This document shows positions 48-60,470 of a stretch of 64,000 nucleotides of DNA, in pieces. A model generated the notes under the pieces. That model was not told the origin of the DNA. It did not search any database and worked only from the letters and a program-made list of their open reading frames with translations. The position numbers and the translations under genes were made by a program. Within the stretch, counting starts at the first letter, position 1. Every line of letters begins with the position of its first letter. Origin of the DNA: Armatimonadota bacterium (GTDB lineage Bacteria > Armatimonadota > UBA5829 > DTJY01); the NCBI GenBank assembly GCA_023511795.1, contig JAIMAU010000011.1:1-64000 (forward strand), given 5' to 3'.

Positions 48-1985
48 TTAAAATTTGCTTTTTATATAGATACTTTTATTTTTAATTTTAAAGGAATAAA
101 AAACATTTTTATATAACAAATAAATCATTTGTCTCGCAAATAAACCTGGAAAAAATCGAGCTAAAAGACCATTTTGTGGAACAGCGGCTCTTGCAAACCG
201 AACTTTCCAACCAAACCTCTGGCATACATCCATGAAATCCTTGTGGGTCCATAACCTCACATGTTCCTTCATATGGTATAACACGTCAGTAATAGGCACC
301 CTGCCAAAAAGCAACCGGAGCCTGTGCTGCCAATAGCCACAATTTGGAATTGAGACAACTATTTTATTGGATATGGTAAACATCTTTGCGATAGCATCTT
401 CAGCATCAGGGATGTGTTCGATGACCTGAAGCATGGTTACTACGTCAAAATGCATATTGCAAAAAAGCTCATTTTCGTTAAAGAAAGGTATTTCCCTTGG
501 GAAGTCAGCTGGTCTGCAAACATCGCAACCTGCTATATTCTTATAACCTTTGCTTTTAAGATAGCTCAGAAACTCTCCACTGCCGCATCCATAATCCAAA
601 ATATTATCCGCAGGCCGAATAATATTTGCCGCAATTTCAAACCTTGGATAGAAAGCCCTCGAACTTCCATCCTCGATACGGCGGTTCCAATAATCATTAT
701 AGGTTGGAATAGGGTCGATAGGAGCCTTTCGGCTGATGTATCTGGCGCATTGAATTACTGCCTTTAATGGCCTAAGAAACCTTCTAACTATAGGCCGTAC
801 AAGCCTACGTGCGCCTGGAATGGGATCTTTCCAACTGAAAACAGCCTCATTAAAGTAGAAATAAGGCTTAAGCCTTTCCCAAAGCGAAACCTTCCATTCA
901 GGATTATTTCGCCTCCATCTCCAATCCTCCCAGTCGCCGAGGATGTCAATCCAATACCTACCGCCATCACGCTGCCTAGCAGTAAACAAATGCTGACCTG
1001 TGCTGAGAAGATATTGCTGAAGTGGAAGGTTTACGCCTTTTAATGCCGCCATGCCAATCCAAAAATCTAGACGCGGATTAAGTTCGATAAATTGCCATTT
1101 CCCTTCATTCTTATTCCAAATAAACTCAATGCCACCAGGCCCAACGTACTCAATAGCTTTTAAGAACCGCTCAGTTAAACTATATATCTCAGGGATGTAA
1201 TCAGACTCACCAACTGTGCATGTACCGAAATCAGCAGGCCACTGACGAACCTTGCGTCCAATAAAAACTGCCGGGATAGAATGGTCTTCTGCCGCTACGA
1301 ATTTTATCGTTGGGAGCTCGCGATTGGATACAAATAGATATTCCTGCACAAAATAGGCTATTTCTGCTTCCTCCACCATTGCCGCCTTTTCAAGCAATTC
1401 CTGGCGGTTGTTAACTTTTGCTGCTTTCGAGCCAAATAGATGTTGAAACTTTCCTGTATTGATGAGCTTTCTGCCTCTAAACGTGAACCTAGCCACCAAA
1501 GGTTTAATTATTGCCGGGAAGGTGTCCCACTCTAATAGCTGATTCCTTGATGGGTTTGTTAACGTTAGCGGAAGTGGCACTCCCGCCTGTTCAGCAAACT
1601 TGAGCATATGTTCTTTATTAAAGAATCGATCAAGCTTATCAAGAGGCAGGTAAGGATATAGACATACTGGCGAAAGTTCAGCCTGATAAAGACTTACAAT
1701 ATATGCAAAAACATCCTCTGCCATAAAGAGCACCGGTTTTGATTCTTGGTTTTTCCCATATTCAACGAGCCATTGGACAAAAGCCTCATGGTCCTTAAGT
1801 GGATCGGGAACAATGTGTCGTTCTACAACATAGCGTGAATAGAAACTGTCACACTTAGCCGGGTTAGCAGCAACTACGGGAATGCCAGCAAGTCCAAGAG
1901 ATTGAATATGCCCATAACCGGCGACTGTGCCAGCAGGAAAAACAATAGCCTTTGATTCCCTAGAAAACTTCGGCAGGTTATTCAT
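48..1985 (-). CDS. ATP-grasp ligase fused to MetW-like methyltransferase
   Basis: A 645-residue, apparently cytoplasmic, two-domain protein. Residues 1 to about 350 resemble carboxylate-amine-ligase ATP-grasp enzymes: an N-terminal Rossmann-like segment (AGTVAGYGHIQSLGLAG), a nucleotide-binding core, and a metal-binding end segment FIELNPRLDFWIG. After a basic linker, residues about 430-610 form a class I SAM methyltransferase with motif I ILDYGCGSGEF near residue 462 and a MetW-like block SIPNCGYWQHRLRLLFG. The ATG follows a GGGGGAT Shine-Dalgarno. It is the last gene of the exopolysaccharide operon, so a role in decorating a sugar or lipid intermediate (amide-forming ligation plus methylation) is inferred. 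Substrates cannot be read from sequence, and both domains could instead act on an amino acid or peptide. Confidence 0.8.
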   Translation of the reverse strand: MNNLPKFSRESKAIVFPAGTVAGYGHIQSLGLAGIPVVAANPAKCDSFYSRYVVERHIVPDPLKDHEAFVQWLVEYGKNQESKPVLFMAEDVFAYIVSLYQAELSPVCLYPYLPLDKLDRFFNKEHMLKFAEQAGVPLPLTLTNPSRNQLLEWDTFPAIIKPLVARFTFRGRKLINTGKFQHLFGSKAAKVNNRQELLEKAAMVEEAEIAYFVQEYLFVSNRELPTIKFVAAEDHSIPAVFIGRKVRQWPADFGTCTVGESDYIPEIYSLTERFLKAIEYVGPGGIEFIWNKNEGKWQFIELNPRLDFWIGMAALKGVNLPLQQYLLSTGQHLFTARQRDGGRYWIDILGDWEDWRWRRNNPEWKVSLWERLKPYFYFNEAVFSWKDPIPGARRLVRPIVRRFLRPLKAVIQCARYISRKAPIDPIPTYNDYWNRRIEDGSSRAFYPRFEIAANIIRPADNILDYGCGSGEFLSYLKSKGYKNIAGCDVCRPADFPREIPFFNENELFCNMHFDVVTMLQVIEHIPDAEDAIAKMFTISNKIVVSIPNCGYWQHRLRLLFGRVPITDVLYHMKEHVRLWTHKDFMDVCQRFGWKVRFARAAVPQNGLLARFFPGLFARQMIYLLYKNVFYSFKIKNKSIYIKSKF

Positions 1986-2129
1986 TTAATCCCCCAGTAA
2001 AATTTCTTTCTCCGTTGGAAAATCCATGTTAAAAGCAAGCCTTATAAAATTTCATTTTTCTATGTCTCTCAATGTTAAAAACAATTGCGGGAAAGGCGTG
2101 CGGCAATTTTGCTAAGAGTTGGCTATTCA

Positions 2130-3335
2130 TCAGGCTTGAAATGCCCGACGGACAGCCAGAATTACGGTATTAACATCCTCTTCAGTCAATTTGGCTGAAA
2201 GCGGAAATGAAATCGTCCGGCGTGAAACTTCCAAAGCATTTGGAAAGTCCTCCGGCCGATAACCGAATGTCTCGGCGTAATATGGGTGCAAATGCAAGGA
2301 TACAAAGTGGATTCCCGTGCCAATATTCATTTTGTGCAACCGTTGTTGAAATTCATCTCTTGAGATATCAATCTCATCGATGCGCAGTAGTGGCGTGTAA
2401 AGATGTCTTGCATGAACAGTATCTCTTTCTTCAGGTGGTGGAAGATCCATCGGCAAACTTGAGAACTCTCTGTTGTAAGTTTCCCATATTTCTTTTCGTC
2501 GGCGATGGTATTCAGCTATTTTTCTTAATTGATGGAATCCTATTGCAGCTTGAATATCCATCATATTGTACTTATAACCCGGGGCAACCACCTGATAATG
2601 CTTGAACCCGTCGTCAGAATAGCGCTTCCATGCGTCCTTGCTCAGCCCATGCAAGCTGTAGATGCGAATGGCATCTGCCCATTCGTCGTTATTGGTAGTT
2701 ACCATCCCGCCTTCGCCGGTGACAATGTTCTTCGTCACGTAGAAGCTGAAACAAGTTAGATCTCCTATATTGCCAATCTTCTGTCCATGATACCACGCTT
2801 CAATTGCATGCGCTGCATCCTCGATAACAATAAGGCCATGCTTTTTTGCAATCTTCATAATCTTATCCATATCGCACGGCCGGCCTGCAAAATGCACGGG
2901 AATAATAGCTTTTGTGCGTTCAGTGATTGCACTCTCAATCAAAGCAGGATTTATGTTCATCGAAGGCAGTTCGATATCCACGAAAACAGGCTTTGCGCCT
3001 ACATGAATTATTGAATTAGCGGTCGCGGCGAAGGTCATTGGTGTAGTGATGACTTCGTCACCAGGACCAACGCCACTAACTAGAAGAGAAAGATGAAGCC
3101 CCGCGGTGCACGAGTTTAACGCAATGGCATGTTTACAACCGATGTAGTCACGAAAGTCAGATTGAAACTTTGCAACCTTTGGTCCAGTTCCTAGCCAGCC
3201 ACTTTTTAGACTGGCTACAACTTCTTCAATCTCGTCCTCTTCTATCCTCGGGCTACCAAAAATAAGGTAGTCAGGCCGCACTGGCTCCTCGGTTAATATT
3301 TCTTTTTCCTCAAATCCGGCAATTTTGTTTTTCAT
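2130..3335 (-). CDS. DegT/DnrJ/EryC1/StrS sugar aminotransferase
   Basis: A 401-residue PLP-dependent aminotransferase of the DegT/ArnB/PglE type, which converts keto-sugar nucleotides to amino-sugar nucleotides. Visible hallmarks are the N-terminal PRIEEDEIEEVVASLKSGWLGTGP segment shortened here to its typical SGWLGTGP turn, the cofactor aspartate in VIEDAAHA, and the Schiff-base lysine at about residue 202 in SFYVTKNIVTGEGGM. Length is normal for the family. It starts 11 nt after the upstream UDP-sugar dehydrogenase stop and has no strong Shine-Dalgarno, so it is probably translated by coupling. With that dehydrogenase it would supply an amino- or uronic-type sugar precursor for the polysaccharide. 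The exact sugar is unknown. Confidence 0.9.
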   Translation of the reverse strand: MKNKIAGFEEKEILTEEPVRPDYLIFGSPRIEEDEIEEVVASLKSGWLGTGPKVAKFQSDFRDYIGCKHAIALNSCTAGLHLSLLVSGVGPGDEVITTPMTFAATANSIIHVGAKPVFVDIELPSMNINPALIESAITERTKAIIPVHFAGRPCDMDKIMKIAKKHGLIVIEDAAHAIEAWYHGQKIGNIGDLTCFSFYVTKNIVTGEGGMVTTNNDEWADAIRIYSLHGLSKDAWKRYSDDGFKHYQVVAPGYKYNMMDIQAAIGFHQLRKIAEYHRRRKEIWETYNREFSSLPMDLPPPEERDTVHARHLYTPLLRIDEIDISRDEFQQRLHKMNIGTGIHFVSLHLHPYYAETFGYRPEDFPNALEVSRRTISFPLSAKLTEEDVNTVILAVRRAFQA

Positions 3336-3346
3336 GGTTTAGTAAT

Positions 3347-4570
3347 TTAGCTAACCCTAATAGTTCGGCCTTTTACCCAAATACCTCTTGTATCCATCAA
3401 CCTTCCATTGCCAAACTTTTCGCGCAAGCGGTCTATATCCAAGCTTTTGAACTCATCATGATCTACTAGTAGGAGCAAACAATCGGCGCTATCTAGTGCC
3501 TCGTTGAGAGACACAAGTACCAAGCCATTGAGATTTTCCACATATGGGTCAACTACATACAGCTCATATCCCTTTTCCTTAAGGCTGTATATAATGCGCA
3601 GTGCAGGGCTTTCACGAGTATCGCCTACATTGGCTTTATATGCTGCTCCTAAACAAGCAATCTTTGCGCCAGGTGGAACCACTGACTCAACCCACGATAT
3701 TATTCGCTCTGGCATTGAGTCATTAAGTTGCCTCGCTGCTTTTATAAGAGCGGTAGCTTCGGGCACGCTTTCCACAAGAAACCACGGGTCAACCGCTATA
3801 CAATGACCGCCAACACCAGGACCGGGGTTTAGTATGTTTACACGCGGATGTTTGTTTGCAAGATCAATTACTTCCCAAACATTGGCTCCTAATTGCTGGG
3901 AAATCAACGAAATTTCATTAGCAAAAGCTACGTTCACATCTCTAAATGCGTTCTCGACAAGCTTTACGATTTCGGCGGTGATTAAGTTGGTAATATACAT
4001 ATCTGCACGGACAAACCTGCGATAAAATCTTGCTGCACGGACTGCTGATTCAGTATTTAAACCACCAATCACACGATCGTTGTTCATTAGCTCAATTATT
4101 ATTTTCCCTGGGAGTACCCGTTCTGGGCAATAAGCCACATAAAAATCCTTTCCGGCGCTCAAACCCGATTCTTCTAGAATTGGAATAACAACATTACTCG
4201 TAGTGCCAGGCGGCACAGTCGACTCCACGATAACTAACGCGCCATTTTGAAGGTTTTCGGATATCATTTGGGCAGCATGAGTAACGCAGTTTAAGTCGGC
4301 GGTCTTATCTTCTTTTATTGGCGTGGGAACTGCAATCAAGAAAACATCAGCCGGACATGGAGAACTGCTGACCGTCAACGAACCATCAGCAATTACGCGA
4401 GCAACTGATGCCTGAAGCTCTGGCTCGGCAATATGTGCGCGCCCGGCAGAAAGGCAATCGATTACATTGGGATCTATGTCCACTCCTCTGACTTTGTAAC
4501 CACTTGAAGCTGCTAACGTGGCCGTAGGAAGCCCTATATACCCAAGTCCCAGCACACAAATCTGCTCCAT
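3347..4570 (-). CDS. UDP-N-acetyl-D-mannosamine dehydrogenase-like (WecC/UDP-glucose DH family)
   Basis: A 407-residue NAD-dependent nucleotide-sugar 6-dehydrogenase. The Rossmann motif GLGYIGLPTATLAASSG opens the protein, the conserved VESTVPPGTT loop and KLVENAFRDVNVAFANE helix follow, and the catalytic cysteine lies at about residue 257 in GPGVGGHCIAVDPWF. The GGHCIAVDP form is characteristic of the ManNAc/GlcNAc-oxidising (WecC/WbpA) branch rather than UDP-glucose dehydrogenase (GICxPKD). Its ATG directly follows the TGA of the Wzz-like gene, and the Shine-Dalgarno AAGGAGGT lies inside the last codons of that gene, indicating tight translational coupling. It probably makes a UDP-N-acetyl-hexosaminuronic acid for the exopolysaccharide. 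Confidence 0.92.
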   Translation of the reverse strand: MEQICVLGLGYIGLPTATLAASSGYKVRGVDIDPNVIDCLSAGRAHIAEPELQASVARVIADGSLTVSSSPCPADVFLIAVPTPIKEDKTADLNCVTHAAQMISENLQNGALVIVESTVPPGTTSNVVIPILEESGLSAGKDFYVAYCPERVLPGKIIIELMNNDRVIGGLNTESAVRAARFYRRFVRADMYITNLITAEIVKLVENAFRDVNVAFANEISLISQQLGANVWEVIDLANKHPRVNILNPGPGVGGHCIAVDPWFLVESVPEATALIKAARQLNDSMPERIISWVESVVPPGAKIACLGAAYKANVGDTRESPALRIIYSLKEKGYELYVVDPYVENLNGLVLVSLNEALDSADCLLLLVDHDEFKSLDIDRLREKFGNGRLMDTRGIWVKGRTIRVS

Positions 4571-6010
4571 TCAGACCTCCTTCTTACGAGGTTGCTTTTG
4601 TGGAATCCCTTTAGCTTTTCTAATTTCGCCTGACGTACCTGCAAAGCCTTCTTGAACGATAGCTATGAACACGCCACCAAAAAGTCCCAACACCAGGCTC
4701 GCGAGAAAGAACAGCTTCACCGAAGGCTTCGCAGGGCCAGTCGGAACAACCGGCTTGTCCACAACAATAAATGTCTCTGCATTCCGCTCCTCATTTACAC
4801 GAGCTTTAGCATACTCGGCCAAGAGCGTCATGTAAACCGTTTCTGCAGCCTTAAGATCTCGTAGTAACCTTCCATATTCCACTTCTAACGGAGGCAGATT
4901 GGATAATTGCCGTTCAATCTTTGCCATTGCCGAATTAAGCGCGGATTTTCTAGATTCTAAACCTTCGCCGTTAATTTCCAATAAAACTAATTGCTTGACT
5001 AGTTCCTGATGTGCTGGGCTTGTGCTTCCAGCCTTCCCAGCTATGATATGCGAAACTTCTTCTTGTATCCTATCGTAAGTCTTTTTGATTTCCTGGTCCA
5101 AAGCAACTACATCCGGGTGGTTTTCGGTGAAATCCTCCAGCAACGTTGCGCGCCTGACCTCCAACTTGGCAAGGTTGGCTTTAAGTTCTGAAATGACGGG
5201 ATTATCCATGACAGCCTCGGGTGAAAGCTCAGAAGGTGCGCCGGCTGTCCATGTGGCTCGTGCGCGGGCGATTTGCCCTTGTGCTTCCTGAAGAGCAATC
5301 TCAGCCTGTATCTGCTGTGATGCTAGTTCGAGCGCTTGGTTGGCGTACAGCGAAGCTTTGTCTGGCGGTATTAGCGTCGGATTTGCTTTTTGGAACTTCT
5401 CAAGCCGCTCTTCGGCTTTAGCTAGCTCGTTCTTCGAGCGCTGCAGCTGACTCTCAATGAACATTCGGTTGGTTCGCCCTAGTAACCGCGAGTTCATTTG
5501 GTCAAACAGCTGAAGCTCGCTAAGATAACAATTTGCGATATCAGCTGCAAGGCGCGCGGCAGCCTCGCCAACTTCGCTTTTGCTTATATGGCCTTTAAGC
5601 CAGGAAGTAGGCACATCGCATGTGATGTTCAATCCGCCTTCTTTTGGCGTTTCGATGTAAAGATTATCTTGCAAATCTTTATAGGTCAATCCGTACCGAT
5701 TCAAATTAAGACGTTTGCAGATGTTCTCATTCACGGTGCGGCTACGAAGAACGGTAATGCAAACGTTTCGCCCAGCAAGCGAAGGAGACTCACCAAGTAA
5801 CGGTATACCGCCAACAAGAGAAGCAAGTTGTGAACTTAACGCGTTAGTGCGAGGTTCGGGGAAAAGAAGCGTTGCCTTGCCCTGATATGTGCGGGGCACG
5901 ATTGCGAACACTATGCCTGAAATAATCATCACAGCAACAAGTATCCCAAGCACGGTCCGCTTGCGCCGCTTTAACACATATAAGTAGTCAGCAAGGTTTA
6001 TCTCGTCCAT
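4571..6010 (-). CDS. Wzz-type polysaccharide chain-length determinant protein
   Basis: A 479-residue inner-membrane polysaccharide co-polymerase of the Wzz/GumC class. Residues about 16-38 form the first membrane helix after a basic RRKRT segment; a long periplasmic part with heptad-like coiled coil (about 170-400) follows; a proline-rich segment VVPTGPAKPSVKL leads into the second membrane helix (about 432-455). The basic C-terminus has no tyrosine-kinase Walker motifs, so it is the kinase-less form. It lies 14 nt after the SLBB export gene with a GGAAGG Shine-Dalgarno. It is expected to control chain length and to connect polymerisation with the outer-membrane exporter. Confidence 0.88.
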   Translation of the reverse strand: MDEINLADYLYVLKRRKRTVLGILVAVMIISGIVFAIVPRTYQGKATLLFPEPRTNALSSQLASLVGGIPLLGESPSLAGRNVCITVLRSRTVNENICKRLNLNRYGLTYKDLQDNLYIETPKEGGLNITCDVPTSWLKGHISKSEVGEAAARLAADIANCYLSELQLFDQMNSRLLGRTNRMFIESQLQRSKNELAKAEERLEKFQKANPTLIPPDKASLYANQALELASQQIQAEIALQEAQGQIARARATWTAGAPSELSPEAVMDNPVISELKANLAKLEVRRATLLEDFTENHPDVVALDQEIKKTYDRIQEEVSHIIAGKAGSTSPAHQELVKQLVLLEINGEGLESRKSALNSAMAKIERQLSNLPPLEVEYGRLLRDLKAAETVYMTLLAEYAKARVNEERNAETFIVVDKPVVPTGPAKPSVKLFFLASLVLGLFGGVFIAIVQEGFAGTSGEIRKAKGIPQKQPRKKEV

Positions 6011-6024
6011 TGGCCTTCCAACGC

Positions 6025-7647
6025 CTAGAGACGGCGGAATAATGTAATTAGGCTTAAGCTAGAAAATACCATTTGCATCGCATCACGCCAGCCTCCTATA
6101 AACTTAGAAGGCACGTAAATAATATCGCCAGGTTCAAGCACGGGATTACTCTTAACTGATCCCTTAATAATTGCTTGCTTGGCGTTGACCTTCATGATTA
6201 TAGGTTTTTCAAAGCCGCCGCGGACAATGCTAACTTCTGTTAGCTTGGCTATATCTGTAGTGCCACCAGCATCTCCCAGATAGTCAACCAATCTTCGGTT
6301 GGGGCTATATATATATGACCCCGGTTGCTTGACCTCACCGAACACGTGAATTTTGTCGGCAAGTGCAGGAAGTACTAGCGAATCTCCATTTTGCAGTACA
6401 ACATCTTCCGTGTCGTCATTTTGCAAAAGAAGGCGTTCGAGATCAACAGGAATATTCTTCAAGACGCCGTTCTCAAAGCGCTCGATTCGTGCTCGTTTGA
6501 GATCAGCTTGTGGAGTGACCCCTCCGGTTGCCGTAATAACATTTTTAACAGTCTGACCTTGCTTAAGGAAGTAAATTCCACTTTTGTTTTCGATATCAGT
6601 CGTCGTTGAACCAGGGGCGCGCTGGTATACTCCATCGCCTTTGAATTCTCCAATCAACCGTACTATAGGTTGGAATGCAGAAATCGAGGGGACCACCAAA
6701 ACATCTCCTGGCTTAAGTGCAATATCATCCGTCTTTGAGAGCAGATTTACATTTATCGCAAACTTTCGTCCATCTTCGCCAATTCGTTCGATGAAAGCCT
6801 TGTCCTGAGCAGCAGCAGGGGTAGTTCCAAGCGCCAAGCTTATGAGGTCGGAAACGCAAAACTTGTCTTTATTCCCATCAAGTGGAACCATTTCGTATCT
6901 GCCCGGACGCGTGACTTCGCCTGTTACCTCGAGATAGTCGGTCACAGCAGGAACATGCAAGGTGTCGCCAGGTTCAAGACATACGTCATTTTGCGCATTA
7001 CCTGTTACAATTATTTTGTAGAGGTCAACAATTTTTCTTGTGCCATTTCTGATGACCTCGATTCGCCGAGTCGAACCTGTTGGCTTAATTTGCGCCTGAA
7101 GAGCAGCAAGGCTTGCAGTACATACTGCCGGCAGTATTCGTGGGCCAGCATTCTCAACCTCGCCGCTTATCCATACATTGATTGTGCGGACATCCGAAAC
7201 CGTGACCGAAACTTCAAAATTTCTGATATACGTACTCAATCGCTGGCGTAAAGTGTCTTCAAGTTCAGAAACCGTTTTTCCAGCTGCTTGTATTTTGCCA
7301 GCCAAAGGAAGATAGATATCTCCTCCAGGTGTAACCGTCACCTCATCAGGAGATTCGCCTGCCTTAGCATCCGGACGCGCTTTGTAGCCGAGTGTCGCCT
7401 TACCCTGGACATTAATACTAAGCGTGTCCCCTGGCCCTATGCGGTATTCCGGTCCAGAGAAAGCGGCAGGTATCCATTCGTTAAGATTTCCCAGTACGCA
7501 TTTGACTCGGTCGCCTGGGGGAGATTCTGGAGTACTCTGTGGGGGAGGGTTTATCAGTAACAAATCCTCGGACGCGGCGAATGATGAAACGCCGAGGAGT
7601 AACAAGAGGCAAATTTTAGAAAGCAATCCTGTGATTTGTCCGCGCAT
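6025..7647 (-). CDS. Outer-membrane polysaccharide export protein with SLBB domains (Wza-like)
   Basis: A 540-residue secreted protein with a signal peptide (hydrophobic core LLLLLGVSSFAAS). A polysaccharide-export (Poly_export) domain begins with YRIGPGDTLSINVQGKA at about residue 65 and runs through VWISGEVENAGPRI. Several SLBB beta-grasp modules follow, each starting with a V-x-G-E-v-x-x-P-G type strand: LEVTGEVTRPGRY, RLIGEFKGDGVY and HVFGEVKQPGSY. The C-terminal SSLSLITLFRRL may be a short amphipathic or membrane-inserting tail. It is longer than Wza because of the extra SLBB units. As first gene of the operon behind a strong promoter, it should form the outer-membrane channel for the polymer. 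Confidence 0.9.
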   Translation of the reverse strand: MRGQITGLLSKICLLLLLGVSSFAASEDLLLINPPPQSTPESPPGDRVKCVLGNLNEWIPAAFSGPEYRIGPGDTLSINVQGKATLGYKARPDAKAGESPDEVTVTPGGDIYLPLAGKIQAAGKTVSELEDTLRQRLSTYIRNFEVSVTVSDVRTINVWISGEVENAGPRILPAVCTASLAALQAQIKPTGSTRRIEVIRNGTRKIVDLYKIIVTGNAQNDVCLEPGDTLHVPAVTDYLEVTGEVTRPGRYEMVPLDGNKDKFCVSDLISLALGTTPAAAQDKAFIERIGEDGRKFAINVNLLSKTDDIALKPGDVLVVPSISAFQPIVRLIGEFKGDGVYQRAPGSTTTDIENKSGIYFLKQGQTVKNVITATGGVTPQADLKRARIERFENGVLKNIPVDLERLLLQNDDTEDVVLQNGDSLVLPALADKIHVFGEVKQPGSYIYSPNRRLVDYLGDAGGTTDIAKLTEVSIVRGGFEKPIIMKVNAKQAIIKGSVKSNPVLEPGDIIYVPSKFIGGWRDAMQMVFSSLSLITLFRRL

Positions 7648-7726
7648 AATAAACCGGGAATTCAGCGTTTTGGCAACTGTCGCATCCTTTTGACAAGCCT
7701 CTTAAGCCACCCAGGTTAACGCAAAA

Positions 7727-7756
7727 AGTATAACACGACGCTTCTTAGGGTGTCAA
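7727..7756 (-). promoter_or_regulatory. Sigma-70-type promoter of the exopolysaccharide operon
   Basis: On the minus strand a TTGACA -35 box (7756-7751) is followed after 18 nt by a TATACT -10 box (7732-7727). Transcription would start near 7720, about 70 nt before the SLBB gene at 7647, and can run through all five minus-strand genes to position 48. This is a by-eye match. Confidence 0.75.
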
Positions 7757-7771
7757 CTAGACTACTGCCTA

Positions 7772-9505
7772 CTACTGTCTTTTTATTGTAAACGGAGTTA
7801 GTCCCTCTACGCTCGCGGTAACTTCGCCGGAAGCGCCTTGTTCCCAAGTGATTGAAAAAGAGGCCTTGCCATCGGCATTTGTATTTTTCCACGGCTGGTC
7901 AGAGGCGCCACCGGTAACTTTGACTGAAACCATGCAATCCTGCATCGGTTTTCCAGCGGCATCGATGACTAAAACATTAAGGATACTCTTATTAGCATCA
8001 CCCGAAGGATCTGGAATTAGTTCTGCAACGAGTTTGCCCGTCTCCTTTGAAATTACCTCAATAGGTAGAGACGCGGTTTTGCCATCTAACTTTACAACAA
8101 TCTCAGTCTCACCAACTCTTCCGGCATGGAGGACTCCTCCCTGGTCCACGAAGTTTGTAACGCCGTTCATGCTCCAGATTGCCTTTTCCGCTAACTTTGG
8201 GTCAATAGGCTGGCCAGATGAATCTACAAGGCTTAGGCGGACAGTTGATCCAGCTACTATGGGAACTGATGGGGCTGAGATAGTAAATTCGGGAACGTCG
8301 AAATCCTCAGCCTCTTCGGCAAAGACAGCGAGCGCATTGGGAAGCGGACGAAGCCAGCCATCCGAGGGGCTATTGAGCGTGCCAAACCACGTAGAAAGGG
8401 TTGTTGAACCGCCGCCATCGAGATTCATTGCATCAACGCATCCTATGGAAAGCATTAGTTCCGCAAGGTCCTTCAAAGGCATGCCGGTGCTTACCTCTTG
8501 CCTGCCATCAACTGTAACTAGCACAAGTTTTCCATCTGCTGTTACGCCGAGTGCCGAGCGAGGGTGCGTAACGGTAACAAATTTGGAATCCAGCGTTAGG
8601 TTTTCCTTTTCAGCTTCTAAGCTTATTTTGCCATTACGAACAAGCCTGGGAGTACCACCAGTGGCCTCTATGACCTTTTCCCAACCGGTTGTCGTTTCAC
8701 CTTTGACATTGAACTGCAAAGTCAACTCTACACCTTCTTTTAAATTCTCTTTAATAAAGTCCGAACCCGTGCCTCTACCAGAAAGCACGATGCCGTTTTC
8801 AGGTATAGGAGTATCACCAGCGTCGGGGCGGACGTTGGTGACAGTACCCTTTAAAGGAACACCAAGCCTAATGGGGAGGTCGGGTGAAATTACCACTGCC
8901 TCTGAGCCATTTGACTCCGTGCATGTGCTCTTGAAAAACTTCGGCGTATAGACAACCATCTCGTGGTCGCCCCGGGGCCGATTTATGCCCCTTATCGGAA
9001 ACCACTTGCCATCGGGGAGAGTGATTCGAGCATCAAATTCGAGGCGGTCGAATAGGTACTGACCATCGGATGTAATGCCAAACATTGTTCGATTTGGATA
9101 TGGTTCGCTGATGAGCTCTCCTCCGCTAATGTGAAGACCGAGTGGGTCGCCGGTCCAATTGCAAAAATCGGTATTTAGAACAGCAATTGCACGAAGGCGC
9201 TTAGCCATGGAGCCGATTGTCTCACGGCCATTTGTCTTGTCGAGACCCCAAACACAATCACCACCAAGTACCATTTTAATTTTAACTCCAGGGGCTTTAG
9301 GGTCAACTTTTACAATATTTATGATTCTTGGAATAGTTTTATCATTGGGGCCAGAACATTCTTTTACAATCTGAGTTAGCACCACACCCGGCGCTAACTC
9401 TTTTGTCCATTCTCCTGCATACAAGCTGCACGCAGTAAGCACCAAAAGGGCAAGCGCCAATAAAGAATGTGGAAGCCTAAACAAAACACGTCTTTTTGAA
9501 AACAT
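7772..9505 (-). CDS. Secreted phosphodiester glycosidase (NAGPA-domain) protein with Ig-like C-terminus
   Basis: A 577-residue exported protein with signal peptide (LLALALLVLTACSLYAG). Residues about 60-370 match the NAGPA/phosphodiester-glycosidase fold named for the mammalian mannose-6-phosphate uncovering enzyme: RAIAVLNTDFCNW, THPRSALGVT and the hallmark NLDGGGSTTL. The remaining part looks like bacterial Ig-like beta-sandwich modules (VPIVAGSTVRLSLVDSSG and PDPSGDANKSILNVLVIDA). The alternative reading of ACSLYAG as a lipobox is weak. An AAGGAG Shine-Dalgarno precedes the ATG. It lies downstream of the GlmL-type genes and upstream of the exopolysaccharide promoter. A role in hydrolysing sugar-1-phosphodiester bonds in surface glycans is likely but inferred. 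Confidence 0.82.
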   Translation of the reverse strand: MFSKRRVLFRLPHSLLALALLVLTACSLYAGEWTKELAPGVVLTQIVKECSGPNDKTIPRIINIVKVDPKAPGVKIKMVLGGDCVWGLDKTNGRETIGSMAKRLRAIAVLNTDFCNWTGDPLGLHISGGELISEPYPNRTMFGITSDGQYLFDRLEFDARITLPDGKWFPIRGINRPRGDHEMVVYTPKFFKSTCTESNGSEAVVISPDLPIRLGVPLKGTVTNVRPDAGDTPIPENGIVLSGRGTGSDFIKENLKEGVELTLQFNVKGETTTGWEKVIEATGGTPRLVRNGKISLEAEKENLTLDSKFVTVTHPRSALGVTADGKLVLVTVDGRQEVSTGMPLKDLAELMLSIGCVDAMNLDGGGSTTLSTWFGTLNSPSDGWLRPLPNALAVFAEEAEDFDVPEFTISAPSVPIVAGSTVRLSLVDSSGQPIDPKLAEKAIWSMNGVTNFVDQGGVLHAGRVGETEIVVKLDGKTASLPIEVISKETGKLVAELIPDPSGDANKSILNVLVIDAAGKPMQDCMVSVKVTGGASDQPWKNTNADGKASFSITWEQGASGEVTASVEGLTPFTIKRQ

Positions 9506-9584
9506 AGCAGGACTCCTTATCTAAGAACTTAATTTAAGAAGCCAGTTGTCTTCTATGAGTCACAACCTTAAAAAAGTCGAAAAA

Positions 9585-10706
9585 CTATTCTTGGATTATC
9601 TCAACATTCGCGCGTGGAACCGTAACATCCTCGCCGTTCTCGAGCTTGGCTTTTAGGGTTCGAACCTTCGCCCCCGATTCAATTAATACTGGTTCAGGTG
9701 GCAATGCTACTACCTCGCCAAGCATGCCAAAATAAGGCTCGCGAATAATACGTATCCTTGTTCCCAATTCCAGAGTTTGCTCAGCCGAGGAATCTACGCT
9801 GGCAACAACAATGTTTTTAATAGGCACGATTATTTCGGGACGGATTACTCCAGCGCGTATTTGGGTTGCACCATTAATTGATGCCTGCCGCCCTTCGAGC
9901 GATTTAAGAAGCTCAAAAGTACGATGTGCCATTCGCATTACACCGAAGCCCTCGGTTGCAATTAGCGTTGTTGGGATTTCCTCATGTCCTGTGATGGCAA
10001 CGCCTATGTCGTAACCAAGGTAATCAACAAGGTCTTTGTCGATAATTCCACCAACCACTATTCCTGCGACTCCAATTCCGGCGGCTTTTCTTATGGCCAT
10101 ACCAGTAATATTAGCGCCCGCGACTATTACCTTTCCGGCGAGATCATCAGTGATTGAATCCTCGTCTACAATTTCACCAGGTTGAGCTACTACTACCTTA
10201 ATTTCTCCCAGACGCTCTCCGCCCACTCCGAAGATTCCCTGTATAAGCGCACCAGTGGTCTCGACTACGACGCCTTCCTCCGGCAAAACCTCAACGATAT
10301 CGCCTTCTATATAAGCCTTGACCTCAACCAATGTTGGCTTGTATCGAATGCCTATATGCCCAGAGATTGGCGAGATCATCTCAACCGTGCCAGCAATTGG
10401 GGACTTGCACTCGTTTCTGAACAGGCCGAAGAAAGATCGGCTCTCAGCGAGGACCGTCCCGGGTTCGACTTCGTCGCCAATGGCAACCTTAAGTACGCGC
10501 TCAACCTCCGATGGCTCAATCCCTAGATACTCTGCCACGCGAACGGTCTGCATTACGCCGGGAAGTTCTGTTCGGGCGACAACTGTGTCAGGCAAGACGT
10601 GGTCGCCAACCTTTACGTTAACTTCTCCTTTTAGAGGCAGGCGCCTTGTTTTGCGTATTGTCGTTTTCGAACTAACTTTAAGTCCTGGTGTATATGCTGT
10701 TCCCAT
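9585..10706 (-). CDS. Barrel-sandwich/KOW-type partner of the GlmL-family ATPase, function unknown
   Basis: A 373-residue cytoplasmic protein with no signal peptide or membrane segment. The N-terminal about 150 residues read as repeated barrel-sandwich (biotinyl-lipoyl/RnfC-like) beta modules: KGEVNVKVGDHVLPDTVVAR, VAIGDEVEPGTVLAES and SPISGHIGIRYKP. A central segment rich in glycine and valine (IVAGANITGMAIRKAAGIGV) resembles a small alpha/beta binding domain. The C-terminus (RIIREPYFGMLGEVVALPPE) resembles a KOW-like beta barrel. It starts 3 nt after the GlmL-type gene, whose last codons carry its GGAG Shine-Dalgarno, so the two proteins are made together and probably act together. I do not know a defined function. 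Confidence 0.6.
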   Translation of the reverse strand: MGTAYTPGLKVSSKTTIRKTRRLPLKGEVNVKVGDHVLPDTVVARTELPGVMQTVRVAEYLGIEPSEVERVLKVAIGDEVEPGTVLAESRSFFGLFRNECKSPIAGTVEMISPISGHIGIRYKPTLVEVKAYIEGDIVEVLPEEGVVVETTGALIQGIFGVGGERLGEIKVVVAQPGEIVDEDSITDDLAGKVIVAGANITGMAIRKAAGIGVAGIVVGGIIDKDLVDYLGYDIGVAITGHEEIPTTLIATEGFGVMRMAHRTFELLKSLEGRQASINGATQIRAGVIRPEIIVPIKNIVVASVDSSAEQTLELGTRIRIIREPYFGMLGEVVALPPEPVLIESGAKVRTLKAKLENGEDVTVPRANVEIIQE

Positions 10707-57382: not shown

Positions 57383-57411
57383 TTGCTTTTTCAAAATTGT
57401 TGTGGTATCAT
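57383..57411 (+). promoter_or_regulatory. Promoter of the fluoride-riboswitch operon
   Basis: TTGCTT (57383-57388), 17-nt spacer, TATCAT (57406-57411). The predicted start near 57418 is just before the riboswitch aptamer, as expected for a cis-acting leader. Confidence 0.72.
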
Positions 57412-57422
57412 TCATATGAAAA

Positions 57423-57469
57423 GGGGATGGAGTCCCCCAGAATCGTCTAGAACGACTGATGACTCCTGC
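57423..57469 (+). promoter_or_regulatory. Fluoride riboswitch aptamer (crcB motif)
   Basis: The segment fits the crcB-motif consensus closely. P1 is GGGG (57423-57426) with CCCC (57435-57438) closing the GGGGATGGAGTCCCCC element, which matches GGnGAUGGnnUnCnCC. A second stem TCGT/ACGA (57443-57446 with 57452-57455) is followed by CTGATGACTCCTGC (57456-57469), matching CUGAUGnnnCCUnC. The loop GGAGTC (57429-57434) is exactly complementary to GACTCC (57461-57466), forming the family's pseudoknot. Published family members bind fluoride and turn genes on. Here the switch precedes a dynamin-like GTPase, not crcB or CLC-F. Confidence 0.93.
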
Positions 57470-57499
57470 AAGGGCAAAAAAAATCCAAAGTTCCTCGGC

Positions 57500-57561
57500 G
57501 GGAGTCACGTTTTTATAAATAGACGTTTAACTCCCTCCAAGGCTAAAAGAGGGAGTTTTTC
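57500..57561 (+). terminator. Riboswitch expression platform: terminator with alternative antiterminator
   Basis: Terminator: AACTCCCTC (57529-57537) with GAGGGAGTT (57549-57557), then a T-run to 57560. Antiterminator: GGGAGT-c-ACGT (57500-57510) can pair with ACGT-tta-ACTCCC (57523-57535), destroying the terminator. Anti-antiterminator: TGACTCC (57460-57466) of the aptamer can pair with GGAGTCA (57501-57507). When fluoride forms the pseudoknot, that strand is occupied and the antiterminator is free, so the logic is ON with fluoride. The 3' terminator arm AGGGAG (57550-57555) is also the Shine-Dalgarno of the next gene, giving a second level of control. Confidence 0.82.
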
Positions 57562-57564
57562 GTT

Positions 57565-59409
57565 TTGGGCGAAGTATTGAAACATGGCAAACTTGAAATA
57601 AAAAGTAACAGCATCTCACCCGAGGGGGAAAACCTCGAGCAAACGGCTCTGGCAATCGCACAGGCACAGAATATTTTGGAAGAAGCCGGACCCTCTTATG
57701 ATTCATACTTAGAGAGGCTTCAGCTACTAAAGCAACGACTAAATGAAGAGCGGTTCCATTTGGCAGCGCTTGGCCAATTCAAACGCGGCAAGAGCACCCT
57801 CCTCAATGCCCTTCTCGGCGCTGATGTGCTTCCCACATCCGTCATTCCTGTTACAGCAATACCAACCTTCGTGCAGTACGGGCCGAAATATACTGCAAAA
57901 GTTAGATTCATAAATGGCGAAACAGAAGACATGATTGCCGAAGGGACAACCGAACAGCTTGCGGAATTCCTTGCAAAATATGTCACTGAGGAAAGAAATC
58001 CCCGCAACCGTCTAGGAGTTCACGAGGTAGTATTAGAATACCCATCTTCATTACTTCAGCAAGGGGTTGTATTAATTGACACGCCTGGAATTGGCTCAAC
58101 GTTCCGCCACAACACCGAGGCAACTTTGAACTTTCTCTCACAGTGCGATGCTGCACTTTTTATTATTTCTCCTGACCCCCCCATTACAGAAGTCGAAATC
58201 GACTTTTTGAAAGAAGTCCTGGCTAAGACAACAAACACATTCTTCATTCTAAACAAAGCAGATTACCTCTCAGGCGAAGAGCTTTCAAAGACGGTCGAGT
58301 TCCTCAAGCAGGCTTTGAAAGACCACGCTGGAATCGATAACAATATCAAAATATTTTGCGTCTCAGCCCGGGATGGACTTCGGGCAAAGCTATCGGGAGA
58401 TGAAGCAGGCTGGGTCAAAAGCGGAATGCAAGCAGTGCAAAAGCACCTTGTTGAATTTCTAGCAAACCAAAAATCATCAGCCCTGCGAAAAGCTATCTCT
58501 AAAAAAGCAAGCACCGTTATATCAGACGCCGTTCTCCACATCGGTATTTCTCTTGCATCGCTCCGTATACCTCTCGACAAGCTTGAGGAGCGAATGCGGC
58601 TACTTCAGAAAAAACTTGATGAGGTAGAAACCCAGCGGCTAGCCCAGTTAGACATCATAGAAGGCGATAGAAAAAGAATGATTGCTCTTTTGGAAGACCA
58701 AGCCGAGCATCTGCGGAAGAAAGCAAAGTCTCGGCTATTAGAAATTGTGCGTACAAATTGCTCTAACGGTGCTGTGCTCAACGAAGACGAAATCTACAAA
58801 GAATTAGCGGAAGCAGTTCCGGTGTTGTTTGAGCACGAACTTGGCGAACTATCGAGAACATTGGGAAAGAGGGCGCATGAAGTATTTGTACGGCATAAGC
58901 ACAACGCTAATGAACTCACAGAAAGCATTCGCAAAGCGGCGGCAGAGTTGTTCAACGTTCCATATCACAAGCAGGATGAAGGCGAAGATTTCGAGGTCAA
59001 GCGGCGACCCTACTGGATTACGCATCAATGGAGCTATTCACTAAGCCTTCTACCGGAAAACTTTATCGACAGGTTCCTCCCAGTGCGAATTCGTCGCTCC
59101 CGTGCAATTCGCAGGCTATATAATCAGATAGAAACCATAGTGATGCAGAACGTCGAAAATGTCCGCTGGCCGACCCTTCAAAACCTCGAAGATACATTCC
59201 GCAAATTTGCAAACCAGATTACACAGCAGTATCGCGAAGTTGCCACAGCCACTCGCGATGCCATAGAGGAAGCCTATCGGCAGCGCAAGGAACAAGCGGA
59301 AGCAGTTCAATCTGACATAGCTAAGCTCGAAACAACTCAATACAGATTGGGTGAAATTTTAAAAGAGCTAGAATTATTCATTGATTCAACACAAATTAAC
59401 TGTTCATAG
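57565..59409 (+). CDS. Dynamin-like GTPase downstream of a fluoride riboswitch
   Basis: 614 residues from TTG 57565, 9 nt after the AGGGAG that doubles as terminator arm. A dynamin-family GTPase: P-loop GQFKRGKSTLLNALLG (70-85), switch II DTPGIGS (172-178) and NKAD (230-233). Upstream of the P-loop is a helical arm (about 25-62). After the GTPase come long helical, coiled-coil stretches (about 330-460 and 560-610: LDKLEERMRLLQKKLDEVET, RQRKEQAEAVQSDIAKLETT) and a basic patch RFLPVRIRRSRAIRRLYNQ that could contact membranes. No obvious membrane helix. Bacterial dynamin-like proteins remodel or repair membranes. Being under a fluoride-type riboswitch, a role in membrane damage or ion stress is inferred. 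Confidence 0.88.
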   Translation: MGEVLKHGKLEIKSNSISPEGENLEQTALAIAQAQNILEEAGPSYDSYLERLQLLKQRLNEERFHLAALGQFKRGKSTLLNALLGADVLPTSVIPVTAIPTFVQYGPKYTAKVRFINGETEDMIAEGTTEQLAEFLAKYVTEERNPRNRLGVHEVVLEYPSSLLQQGVVLIDTPGIGSTFRHNTEATLNFLSQCDAALFIISPDPPITEVEIDFLKEVLAKTTNTFFILNKADYLSGEELSKTVEFLKQALKDHAGIDNNIKIFCVSARDGLRAKLSGDEAGWVKSGMQAVQKHLVEFLANQKSSALRKAISKKASTVISDAVLHIGISLASLRIPLDKLEERMRLLQKKLDEVETQRLAQLDIIEGDRKRMIALLEDQAEHLRKKAKSRLLEIVRTNCSNGAVLNEDEIYKELAEAVPVLFEHELGELSRTLGKRAHEVFVRHKHNANELTESIRKAAAELFNVPYHKQDEGEDFEVKRRPYWITHQWSYSLSLLPENFIDRFLPVRIRRSRAIRRLYNQIETIVMQNVENVRWPTLQNLEDTFRKFANQITQQYREVATATRDAIEEAYRQRKEQAEAVQSDIAKLETTQYRLGEILKELELFIDSTQINCS

Positions 59410-59441
59410 CTCAAGCAACATTGAGCCAAAGGAAGCCAAAC

Positions 59442-60128
59442 ATGCGCTCACGTAAAGTCTCGAAACATACTACATATTATGAACTGCTTGATGCGATCAG
59501 TAACGCCCCACACTGCCCTTTATGTGAGGTTGAAGCAAACAGCATCAAATGCTACTTTGATTCACTATTGCACGAGGGTGTGAACGACAATGGGGTTCGC
59601 GAGGCTTTGATTCGTTCCCAAGGCTATTGCCAACGCCATGCACACTACCTTCGAAACCACGGGAAGGGCTTTGAAATTGCTATTTTGTACCAAGACCAGG
59701 TCAAACAATTTCTGCGAAGGCTCGACGAACTTCAAGCAATCCCATCTATGATAATTCGAAAAGGCAAAAGAGCTTGGCGGCAGCCGGACGGAGAATGTCC
59801 GGCATGTCGCATGCAGTACGAATGCCGAAACCGATTTGGAAGTACCCTAATCGAATGGCTTGATGACCAAGAAATGAGAAGGGCTCTTGAAAAAAGCCAT
59901 GGGCTATGTGTTCCGCATTTCTTTGCTCTATTAGATTTAGCTGCGGACGCAAACTCAAGAAACTTATTAATCGAACTGCAACGTGCTAAAACAAATCTGC
60001 TTCTACACGAATTAGAAGAATTCTGCCGCAAACATGATTACCGCTTTAGCCATGAGAAGTTCGGCAAAGAATCAGACTCATGGTCCCGAGCAATCATAAT
60101 GATGGTTGGCAAGGATGGCGTTTTTTGA
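59442..60128 (+). CDS. DUF6062-like protein with duplicated Cys/His motif
   Basis: 228 residues from ATG 59442, preceded by AAGGAAG; an in-frame TTG at 59421 lies before that SD. Two similar halves each carry C-x2-C and a later C-x3-H: HCPLCEVEANSIKCYFDSLL with GYCQRHAHYL, and ECPACRMQYECRNRF with GLCVPHFFALLDLA. The spacing suggests two structural zinc sites or redox-active cysteines. The rest is helical and soluble. It lies 32 nt after the dynamin-like gene in the same direction and should be co-transcribed under the riboswitch. It resembles the DUF6062 family; its biochemical role is unknown. Confidence 0.72.
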   Translation: MRSRKVSKHTTYYELLDAISNAPHCPLCEVEANSIKCYFDSLLHEGVNDNGVREALIRSQGYCQRHAHYLRNHGKGFEIAILYQDQVKQFLRRLDELQAIPSMIIRKGKRAWRQPDGECPACRMQYECRNRFGSTLIEWLDDQEMRRALEKSHGLCVPHFFALLDLAADANSRNLLIELQRAKTNLLLHELEEFCRKHDYRFSHEKFGKESDSWSRAIIMMVGKDGVF

Positions 60129-60248
60129 ATTTAGAAGATTCCAAACATTTAGACGACGCGCCTTTTGTACAAAACTACAGAACGTATTGAAATCATCCAA
60201 AGATTACTATCGAATCCAGTACCTTGGCCCTTTTAAGAGGAATTGAAA

Positions 60249-60470
60249 ATGGCACCGAACAACGCCTTTATTGCAATAGGATTGGCGCTGAGTGTTTTGG
60301 CTGCACTAGCAGCTTTCTTGATTACTTATGAAGAATGGTCCCATCACTATACCAGCCATAGGCAGCCACTTAAGTTTGCGCTCGAAGCAGCTGTAGTTGC
60401 ATTTGTTGTCTTCTCAGTCCTTACGATTCTTGCAGCCGCTTTCGTCTGCCGATTGGTGCAAAACGGATAA
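60249..60470 (+). CDS. Small two-helix membrane protein
   Basis: 73 residues from ATG 60249, 7 nt after AGAGGA. Two membrane helices: AFIAIGLALSVLAALAAFLI and ALEAAVVAFVVFSVLTILAAA, joined by a polar HHYTSHRQPLKF loop. It has neither the length (about 125 residues, four helices) nor the motifs of a Fluc/CrcB fluoride channel. It follows the DUF6062-like gene after 120 nt and may be part of the same unit. It could be a membrane anchor for the dynamin-like protein; no family recognised. Confidence 0.6.
   Translation: MAPNNAFIAIGLALSVLAALAAFLITYEEWSHHYTSHRQPLKFALEAAVVAFVVFSVLTILAAAFVCRLVQNG

Follow-up and report, generated by a model that had tools for sequence, protein, structure and literature searches.

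A fluoride riboswitch precedes a four-gene operon led by a dynamin-like GTPase in the window (i.e., the whole 64,000-nucleotide stretch of Armatimonadota DNA that was analyzed). The best overall explanation, to which we give a probability of roughly 0.85, is that fluoride switches this operon on and that, across many bacteria and some methanogenic archaea, the GTPase subfamily belongs to the fluoride regulon as a dedicated component, with a job that most likely lies at the membrane. The evidence comes from the riboswitch itself, from the genes that follow it, and from the recurrence of the aptamer-GTPase order in distant genomes.

Fluoride aptamer

The elements of the aptamer are the following.

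57414-57475, forward strand: fluoride riboswitch aptamer (crcB motif), Rfam RF01734
57429-57434, forward strand: 5' strand of the pseudoknot, GGAGUC, located in the sequence, pairing with 57461-57466
57461-57466, forward strand: 3' strand of the pseudoknot, GACUCC, located in the sequence, pairing with 57429-57434

The first-pass annotation had described a crcB-motif aptamer with a 6-bp pseudoknot and proposed a covariance-model search as a check. When this search was run, RF01734 matched over its full length at 57414-57475 of the forward strand. Its 48.9 bits exceed the gathering score of 34, and the E-value is 1.5e-12 when 601 bases are searched and 1.6e-10 for the window as a whole. The description therefore stands: the loop-to-tail pseudoknot is intact, with GGAGUC and GACUCC both found, and the conserved core bases are present. 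The span originally given, 57423-57561, comprises the aptamer and the terminator, the Rfam model beginning 9 nt earlier.

In an alignment with 25 related aptamers, the window's aptamer has every invariant column. The pseudoknot helix is paired in 98.7% of cells across these 25 aptamers, and the three aptamer helices in 92.8%, versus 86.8% when shuffled, with 23 double changes observed versus 7 in shuffles. The aptamer is present in a single copy in the 3.09-Mb assembly, and it and one tRNA are the only Rfam matches over the cut-off in the 64 kb. Matches to CRISPR and anti-hemB models in the 601-base search were dismissed, as their scores fall below the cut-off. In the genus g20, the aptamers (L028:1501-1582 and L029:1501-1581) carry one more hairpin, located between P1 and P3, and their loop is shifted (GGAGGUCCGCC with GGCUCC), which makes them a variant fluoride aptamer.

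Leader and predicted switch mechanism

The leader contains four further elements.

57383-57411, forward strand: possible sigma-70-type promoter, identified by eye (TTGCTT at 57383-57388, a 17-nt spacer, TATCAT at 57406-57411)
57461-57506, forward strand: predicted anti-aptamer hairpin of the fluoride-free state, GACUCCUGC (57461-57469) with GCGGGAGUC (57498-57506), from the minimum-free-energy fold
57500-57535, forward strand: predicted antiterminator helix of the fluoride-bound state, GGGAGU (57500-57505) with ACUCCC (57530-57535), from constrained folds
57529-57564, forward strand: intrinsic terminator, stem AACUCCCUC with GAGGGAGUU, then UUUCGUU

The putative promoter, immediately ahead of the aptamer, is weakly supported, with 8 of 12 consensus positions and a score under the scan threshold, and it is kept in the sister species. 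The leader has a folding energy of -61.7 kcal/mol, versus -41.1 kcal/mol for shuffled sequences (z of -5.2). The terminator stem occupies 57529-57557 and is followed by the U-run; its 3' arm carries the Shine-Dalgarno-like GAGGGAG at 57549-57555. The predicted anti-aptamer hairpin sequesters the 3' strand of the pseudoknot. The anti-aptamer, antiterminator and terminator overlap in shared segments, and the expression platform is predicted to be exclusive with the ligand-bound fold. The sister species' leader has an identical terminator and few changes overall, all of which are outside the stems.

Without fluoride, the aptamer tail GACUCC would pair with GGGAGUC (57500-57506), and the freed ACUCCC (57530-57535) would form the terminator, burying the likely ribosome-binding site and leaving the operon off. 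With fluoride, the pseudoknot would retain the tail, GGGAGUC would pair with ACUCCC, the terminator would be blocked, and the operon would be made. Given the exclusive pairings and the ribosome site inside the terminator's 3' arm, the predicted direction is ON with fluoride. Judging from the RNA class, it is very likely that fluoride induces the operon.

Of the 53 linked leaders, 6 have a terminator (1.1 expected by chance), namely those of the window's genus and a few others; with such a count, a terminator leader was rejected as a conserved part of the system. Anti-aptamer 6-mers are not enriched across loci either (3 seen, 2.1 expected). In many linked leaders elsewhere, the AGGAG ribosome site of the GTPase lies 14-150 nt past the aptamer. 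Since AGGAG is complementary to the aptamer's CUCCU tail, this suggests translational control by the aptamer at those loci.

Operon and host genome

The operon consists of four genes on the same strand.

57565-59409, forward strand: dynamin-like GTPase, 614 aa from TTG 57565 (PF00350, E = 1.4e-30; G1, G3 and G4 motifs; structural model; Foldseek)
59421-60128, forward strand: DUF6062 protein (PF19538, E = 8.7e-23, 81.4 bits against a cut-off of 27)
60243-60470, forward strand: orf3, small putative membrane protein of about 75 aa, with homologues in L031 and L095
60520-60963, forward strand: orf4, helical protein of 147 aa with no family match and with homologues in other fluoride operons

This agrees with the gene list first proposed, in which Dynamin_N (PF00350) and DUF6062 (PF19538) are followed by two small proteins. 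The operon begins at most 90 nt after the aptamer, both here and in the sister species, and is followed by convergent TonB/ExbD/ExbB-type genes.

The reported absence of crcB and CLC-F from the window extends to the whole assembly: six-frame family searches for CrcB (PF02537) and CLC (PF00654) returned no match in the 3.09-Mb, 97.6%-complete assembly, while the same searches were positive in 10 and 12 of 14 control genomes. The genome's sole Na+/H+ exchanger is on another contig, without an aptamer, and shares about 24-31% identity with fluoride-linked antiporters. Among the 151 relatives, CrcB occurs in 77, and it occurs in none of G000, G001, G003 and G012. The claim that the riboswitch controls this operon instead of a fluoride channel is thus correct for this genome, but it does not extend to the GTPase generally, which shares operons with CrcB, the Na+/H+ antiporter and enolase elsewhere.

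Dynamin-like GTPase

It is uncertain whether the GTPase starts at TTG 57565 or at TTG 57577. Its motifs are GQFKRGKS (G1), DTPG (G3) and NKAD (G4), and the motif residues are invariant among 70 homologues. The AlphaFold model (pLDDT of 87.7) shows a GTPase head together with helices as long as 70 residues, and both the model and Foldseek show the dynamin-superfamily architecture of a large GTPase head followed by a helical neck and stalk. The best Foldseek matches in the PDB, over most of the length, are Nostoc BDLP and mycobacterial IniA; further matches include the Campylobacter dynamin pair, SynDLP and mitofusins. The superpositions give TM-scores of about 0.5 and a large rmsd, values to be expected of hinged proteins, so that the family is clear and the conformation is not. 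At the far end of the model, an aromatic loop at about residues 463-500, modelled with low confidence, contains conserved Pro, Tyr and Trp residues, of which W484 is invariant. This loop is a candidate for the membrane tip.

DUF6062, orf3 and orf4

The likelier start of the DUF6062 protein is ATG 59442, which gives 228 aa, and its match to PF19538 spans the full length of the family. Two CxxC plus GxCxxH repeats form putative metal sites, with eight Cys/His columns invariant in 18 homologues. Its model is all-helical (pLDDT of 88.9); no fold match was found in the PDB, nor any sequence match, and the literature search found no publication that names DUF6062. Among the relatives, 29 of 42 DUF6062 genes are downstream of an aptamer, in 22 of the 33 genomes that have DUF6062. 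In genome G094, a single 896-aa frame (L084:945-3635) has the GTPase in front and DUF6062 behind, and the same genome carries two further aptamer-linked DUF6062 loci.

Homologues of orf3 occupy the same place in the sister species (L031, 99% identity) and follow an aptamer-linked GTPase in L095 (47%). Homologues of orf4 occur in the fluoride operons L035, L042, L098, L112, L122 and L165, and orf4 is distant kin of the 158-aa proteins in fluoride operons L049, L074 and L090 (hhalign, 96%). Orf4 and the 158-aa proteins form an unnamed helical family that, within these data, seems to be confined to fluoride operons.

Aptamer-GTPase linkage

The aptamer is present in 65 of the 151 relatives. Homologous GTPases are directly downstream of it in the sister species G001 (94% identity) and in G012 (52%), G005 (45%) and G011 (47%), which represent three families of the class. 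Other families have more distant GTPase homologues, of about 27% identity, within their fluoride operons (G056, G057, G061, G077, G094, G095, G115, G139 and G146). In these 151 relatives, 14 of the 17 best-scoring GTPases lie at most 8 kb downstream of a same-strand aptamer, compared with 0 of the 27 next, more distant dynamin-like matches. CrcB follows the GTPase in G005, and the order in G146 is aptamer, enolase, GTPase. The search of related genomes that had been suggested along with the initial annotation thus recovered the aptamer-GTPase order in the sister species (L031) and in two further families (L032, L033 and L034), with no inserted owner gene.

Beyond the relatives, 80 loci from named genomes were fetched with a GTPase profile, by protein only, these being the nearest 80 to the query among the matches listed. 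They were scanned for aptamers by means of a covariance model based on the 25 related ones. In 50 of these best 80 loci among the matches listed, an aptamer ends at most 650 nt upstream of the GTPase on the same strand, a proportion that is no frequency for all bacterial dynamins, given that the loci are those nearest to the query. The remaining loci have an aptamer within 5 kb (9), elsewhere in the locus (4), or none (17); the aptamer-like match in L151, of 19.9 bits, was excluded from the links. By chance, far fewer than one of the 80 loci would be expected to have an aptamer so positioned, an estimate based on one or two aptamers per few Mb. The Rfam model at its cut-off confirms nine rechecked GTPase loci of the linked set, as well as a tenth recheck, plasmid locus L172.

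The 50 linked loci are 40 bacterial and 10 archaeal and cover at least 16 named phyla, with eight loci having no phylum. The linked GTPases are diverged, with about 35-50% identity, and linkage is clustered on the tree (6 changes, versus 14.8 in shuffles). The aptamer-less loci mostly belong to one Desulfuromonas/Geobacter-type clade, which stands apart in the tree, has a different gene neighbourhood, and serves as an internal negative control. The loci of this clade (L149-L155, L158, L159, L163, L166 and L169) have conserved cysteine-synthase-like and ribonuclease-G-like neighbours, as judged by eye. Hosts that are named strains include Moorella sulfitireducens, with a linked operon, and Lichenicola cladoniae. 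Together with the high RF01734 score, the conservation of the order in relatives and in many other phyla supports the original claim that the riboswitch controls the GTPase operon, and we are nearly sure that the GTPase belongs to the fluoride regulon. Given that the linkage recurs in at least 16 bacterial and archaeal phyla, the GTPase seems to be a component of the microbial response to fluoride that has been overlooked.

Operon partners

Known fluoride genes accompany the GTPase in its operons: CrcB, Na+/H+ antiporter, UspA, enolase, MutS domain V and DUF190, several of which were verified against Pfam. The antiporter and UspA occur with it in L102 and L122, enolase in L109, L133, L136 and L112, CrcB and DUF190 in L099, L133 and L164, MutS-domain pairs in L094 and L164, and an MFS transporter in L099 and L102. 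In L112 (Omnitrophota), a single run contains aptamer, GTPase, enolase, an unnamed gene, orf4, MFS, antiporter, UspA, two DUF190 genes and CrcB.

In the cultured alphaproteobacterium Lichenicola cladoniae (L172, plasmid NZ_CP053712.1), a dynamin, an aptamer, an annotated CrcB and UspA adjoin; the aptamer points at crcB, with the dynamin divergent. In this lichen bacterium, the fluoride gene group (CrcB, UspA, antiporter and dynamin) is flanked by IS elements. A dense fluoride island, with many separately switched genes, is seen in L144 (a Candidatus Acidiferrales MAG), where eight aptamer-like matches within 10 kb (625-9882), including six on the forward strand that score at least 37 bits, surround an aptamer-linked GTPase.

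Function and alternative explanations

HF passes through membranes, and both pH and membrane properties are upset by fluoride (PMC11139923); those relatives whose function is known serve in the tethering, fusion or protection of membranes (PMC8844932, PMC6104087). In the explanation that we favor, the GTPase would undergo GTP-driven assembly on the cytoplasmic membrane via the tip of its helical stalk, and would keep the membrane tight or repair it during the entry of HF and the disturbance that fluoride causes in the cell; DUF6062 would be its metal-binding partner. A membrane-remodelling response to fluoride, as initially proposed, is what the fold and family would suggest, and the chance that the GTPase protects the membrane is, in our estimate, just short of even. 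A wider version is offered tentatively: in many bacteria and methanogens, a dedicated dynamin-like membrane machine induced by fluoride, made of the GTPase and often of DUF6062 and an orf4-type helper, may protect cells independently of export, and it may be the main riboswitch-controlled defence in the window's genus, where known exporters are absent.

Rather than acting on the bilayer itself, the GTPase might organise, assemble or gate fluoride, proton or MFS transporters, given that CrcB, the Na+/H+ antiporter and MFS share its operons (e.g., L099, L102, L112, L133 and L164). However, the partner transporter varies by locus and is absent from the window's operon, and in a genome with no CrcB or CLC whose single antiporter lies elsewhere, aptamer-less, we find such a role unlikely. 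It is likewise doubtful that the GTPase is overproduced because fluoride inactivates it, an idea put forward for enolase and pyrophosphatase. By mimicking the transition state, GDP combined with aluminium or magnesium fluoride is known to lock GTPases, and enolase is often a neighbour of this one. Overproduction of inhibited enzymes is, moreover, an already known fluoride response (PMC11139923). Yet the more distant dynamins of the same genomes are not under fluoride control, and DUF6062 and orf4 travel with the GTPase, which suggests a dedicated module instead of one replaced enzyme.

DynA contributes to membrane surveillance against antibiotics and to phage resistance (PMC8844932), and the GTPase weakly resembles LeoA-type models; it could thus be a fluoride-induced general envelope or acid-stress factor, akin to phage or antibiotic protection of the DynA or LeoA type. 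We give this little credence, as fluoride aptamers and fluoride genes accompany this subfamily far more than any other context does. A specifically anti-phage reading was set aside, the LeoA-type matches being weak and no defence neighbours having been seen. Fluoride aptamers often regulate exporters, and the lack of an exporter in this genome could mean that the GTPase is a mere bystander downstream, or that the aptamer was once another gene's. This is highly improbable and already contradicted by the order kept across phyla and two domains of life, with the operon starting no more than 90 nt away from the aptamer in both this genome and that of the sister species; the divergence of the linked proteins speaks against recent transfer of one cassette.

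Significance and comparison with known systems

Fluoride resistance is usually put down to export and to a few inhibited or ion-balancing enzymes. That a dynamin-like GTPase goes with fluoride riboswitches in bacteria and archaea alike suggests the membrane itself to be part of both the problem and the cure. Such a GTPase would give bacterial dynamins, whose natural triggers are to our knowledge mostly not known, a defined chemical on-signal, and would give the DUF6062 and orf4 families a first role. The named-strain hosts, Moorella sulfitireducens and Lichenicola cladoniae, render the link between GTPase and fluoride testable.

The known targets of fluoride riboswitches include exporters, Na+/H+ antiporters, pyrophosphatase, HAD phosphatases and enolase (PMC11139923), as well as mutS, K+ or Cl- transport and formate hydrogen lyase (PMC2864571). 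No dynamin is among the targets in these two reviews and one more, and among the publications searched, none joins the fluoride riboswitch with a dynamin. While the aptamer class is known, the dynamin-like target is therefore provisionally new, given that the supplement of the primary 2012 target list (Baker 2012), which was not covered, may hold such a row.

Among characterized proteins, BDLP of Nostoc (2j68/2j69) is the closest, being both the best Foldseek match (2j69, E = 7.4e-22) and the best profile match (E = 3.7e-49), with a predicted GTPase head and long helical stalk in common. Nevertheless, identity is 17%, and the window's GTPase is shorter, is under fluoride control and differs in its tip sequence. 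IniA of Mycobacterium (6j72/6j73) shares the fold across most of the length (E = 5.6e-21 for 6j72) and is likewise drug- or stress-induced, but it is 20% identical, and its induction is by cell-wall drugs instead of by a riboswitch. DynA of Bacillus subtilis is of the same dynamin family; unlike the window's GTPase, it is two-headed, and its 1187-position model was matched in part only. The DUF6062 family (PF19538) has no characterized relative and is tied here to fluoride aptamers. The riboswitch resembles the known fluoride riboswitch (RF01734) in its aptamer, its pseudoknot and its terminator-type expression platform; in contrast with the known targets, what it precedes is a dynamin-like GTPase operon.
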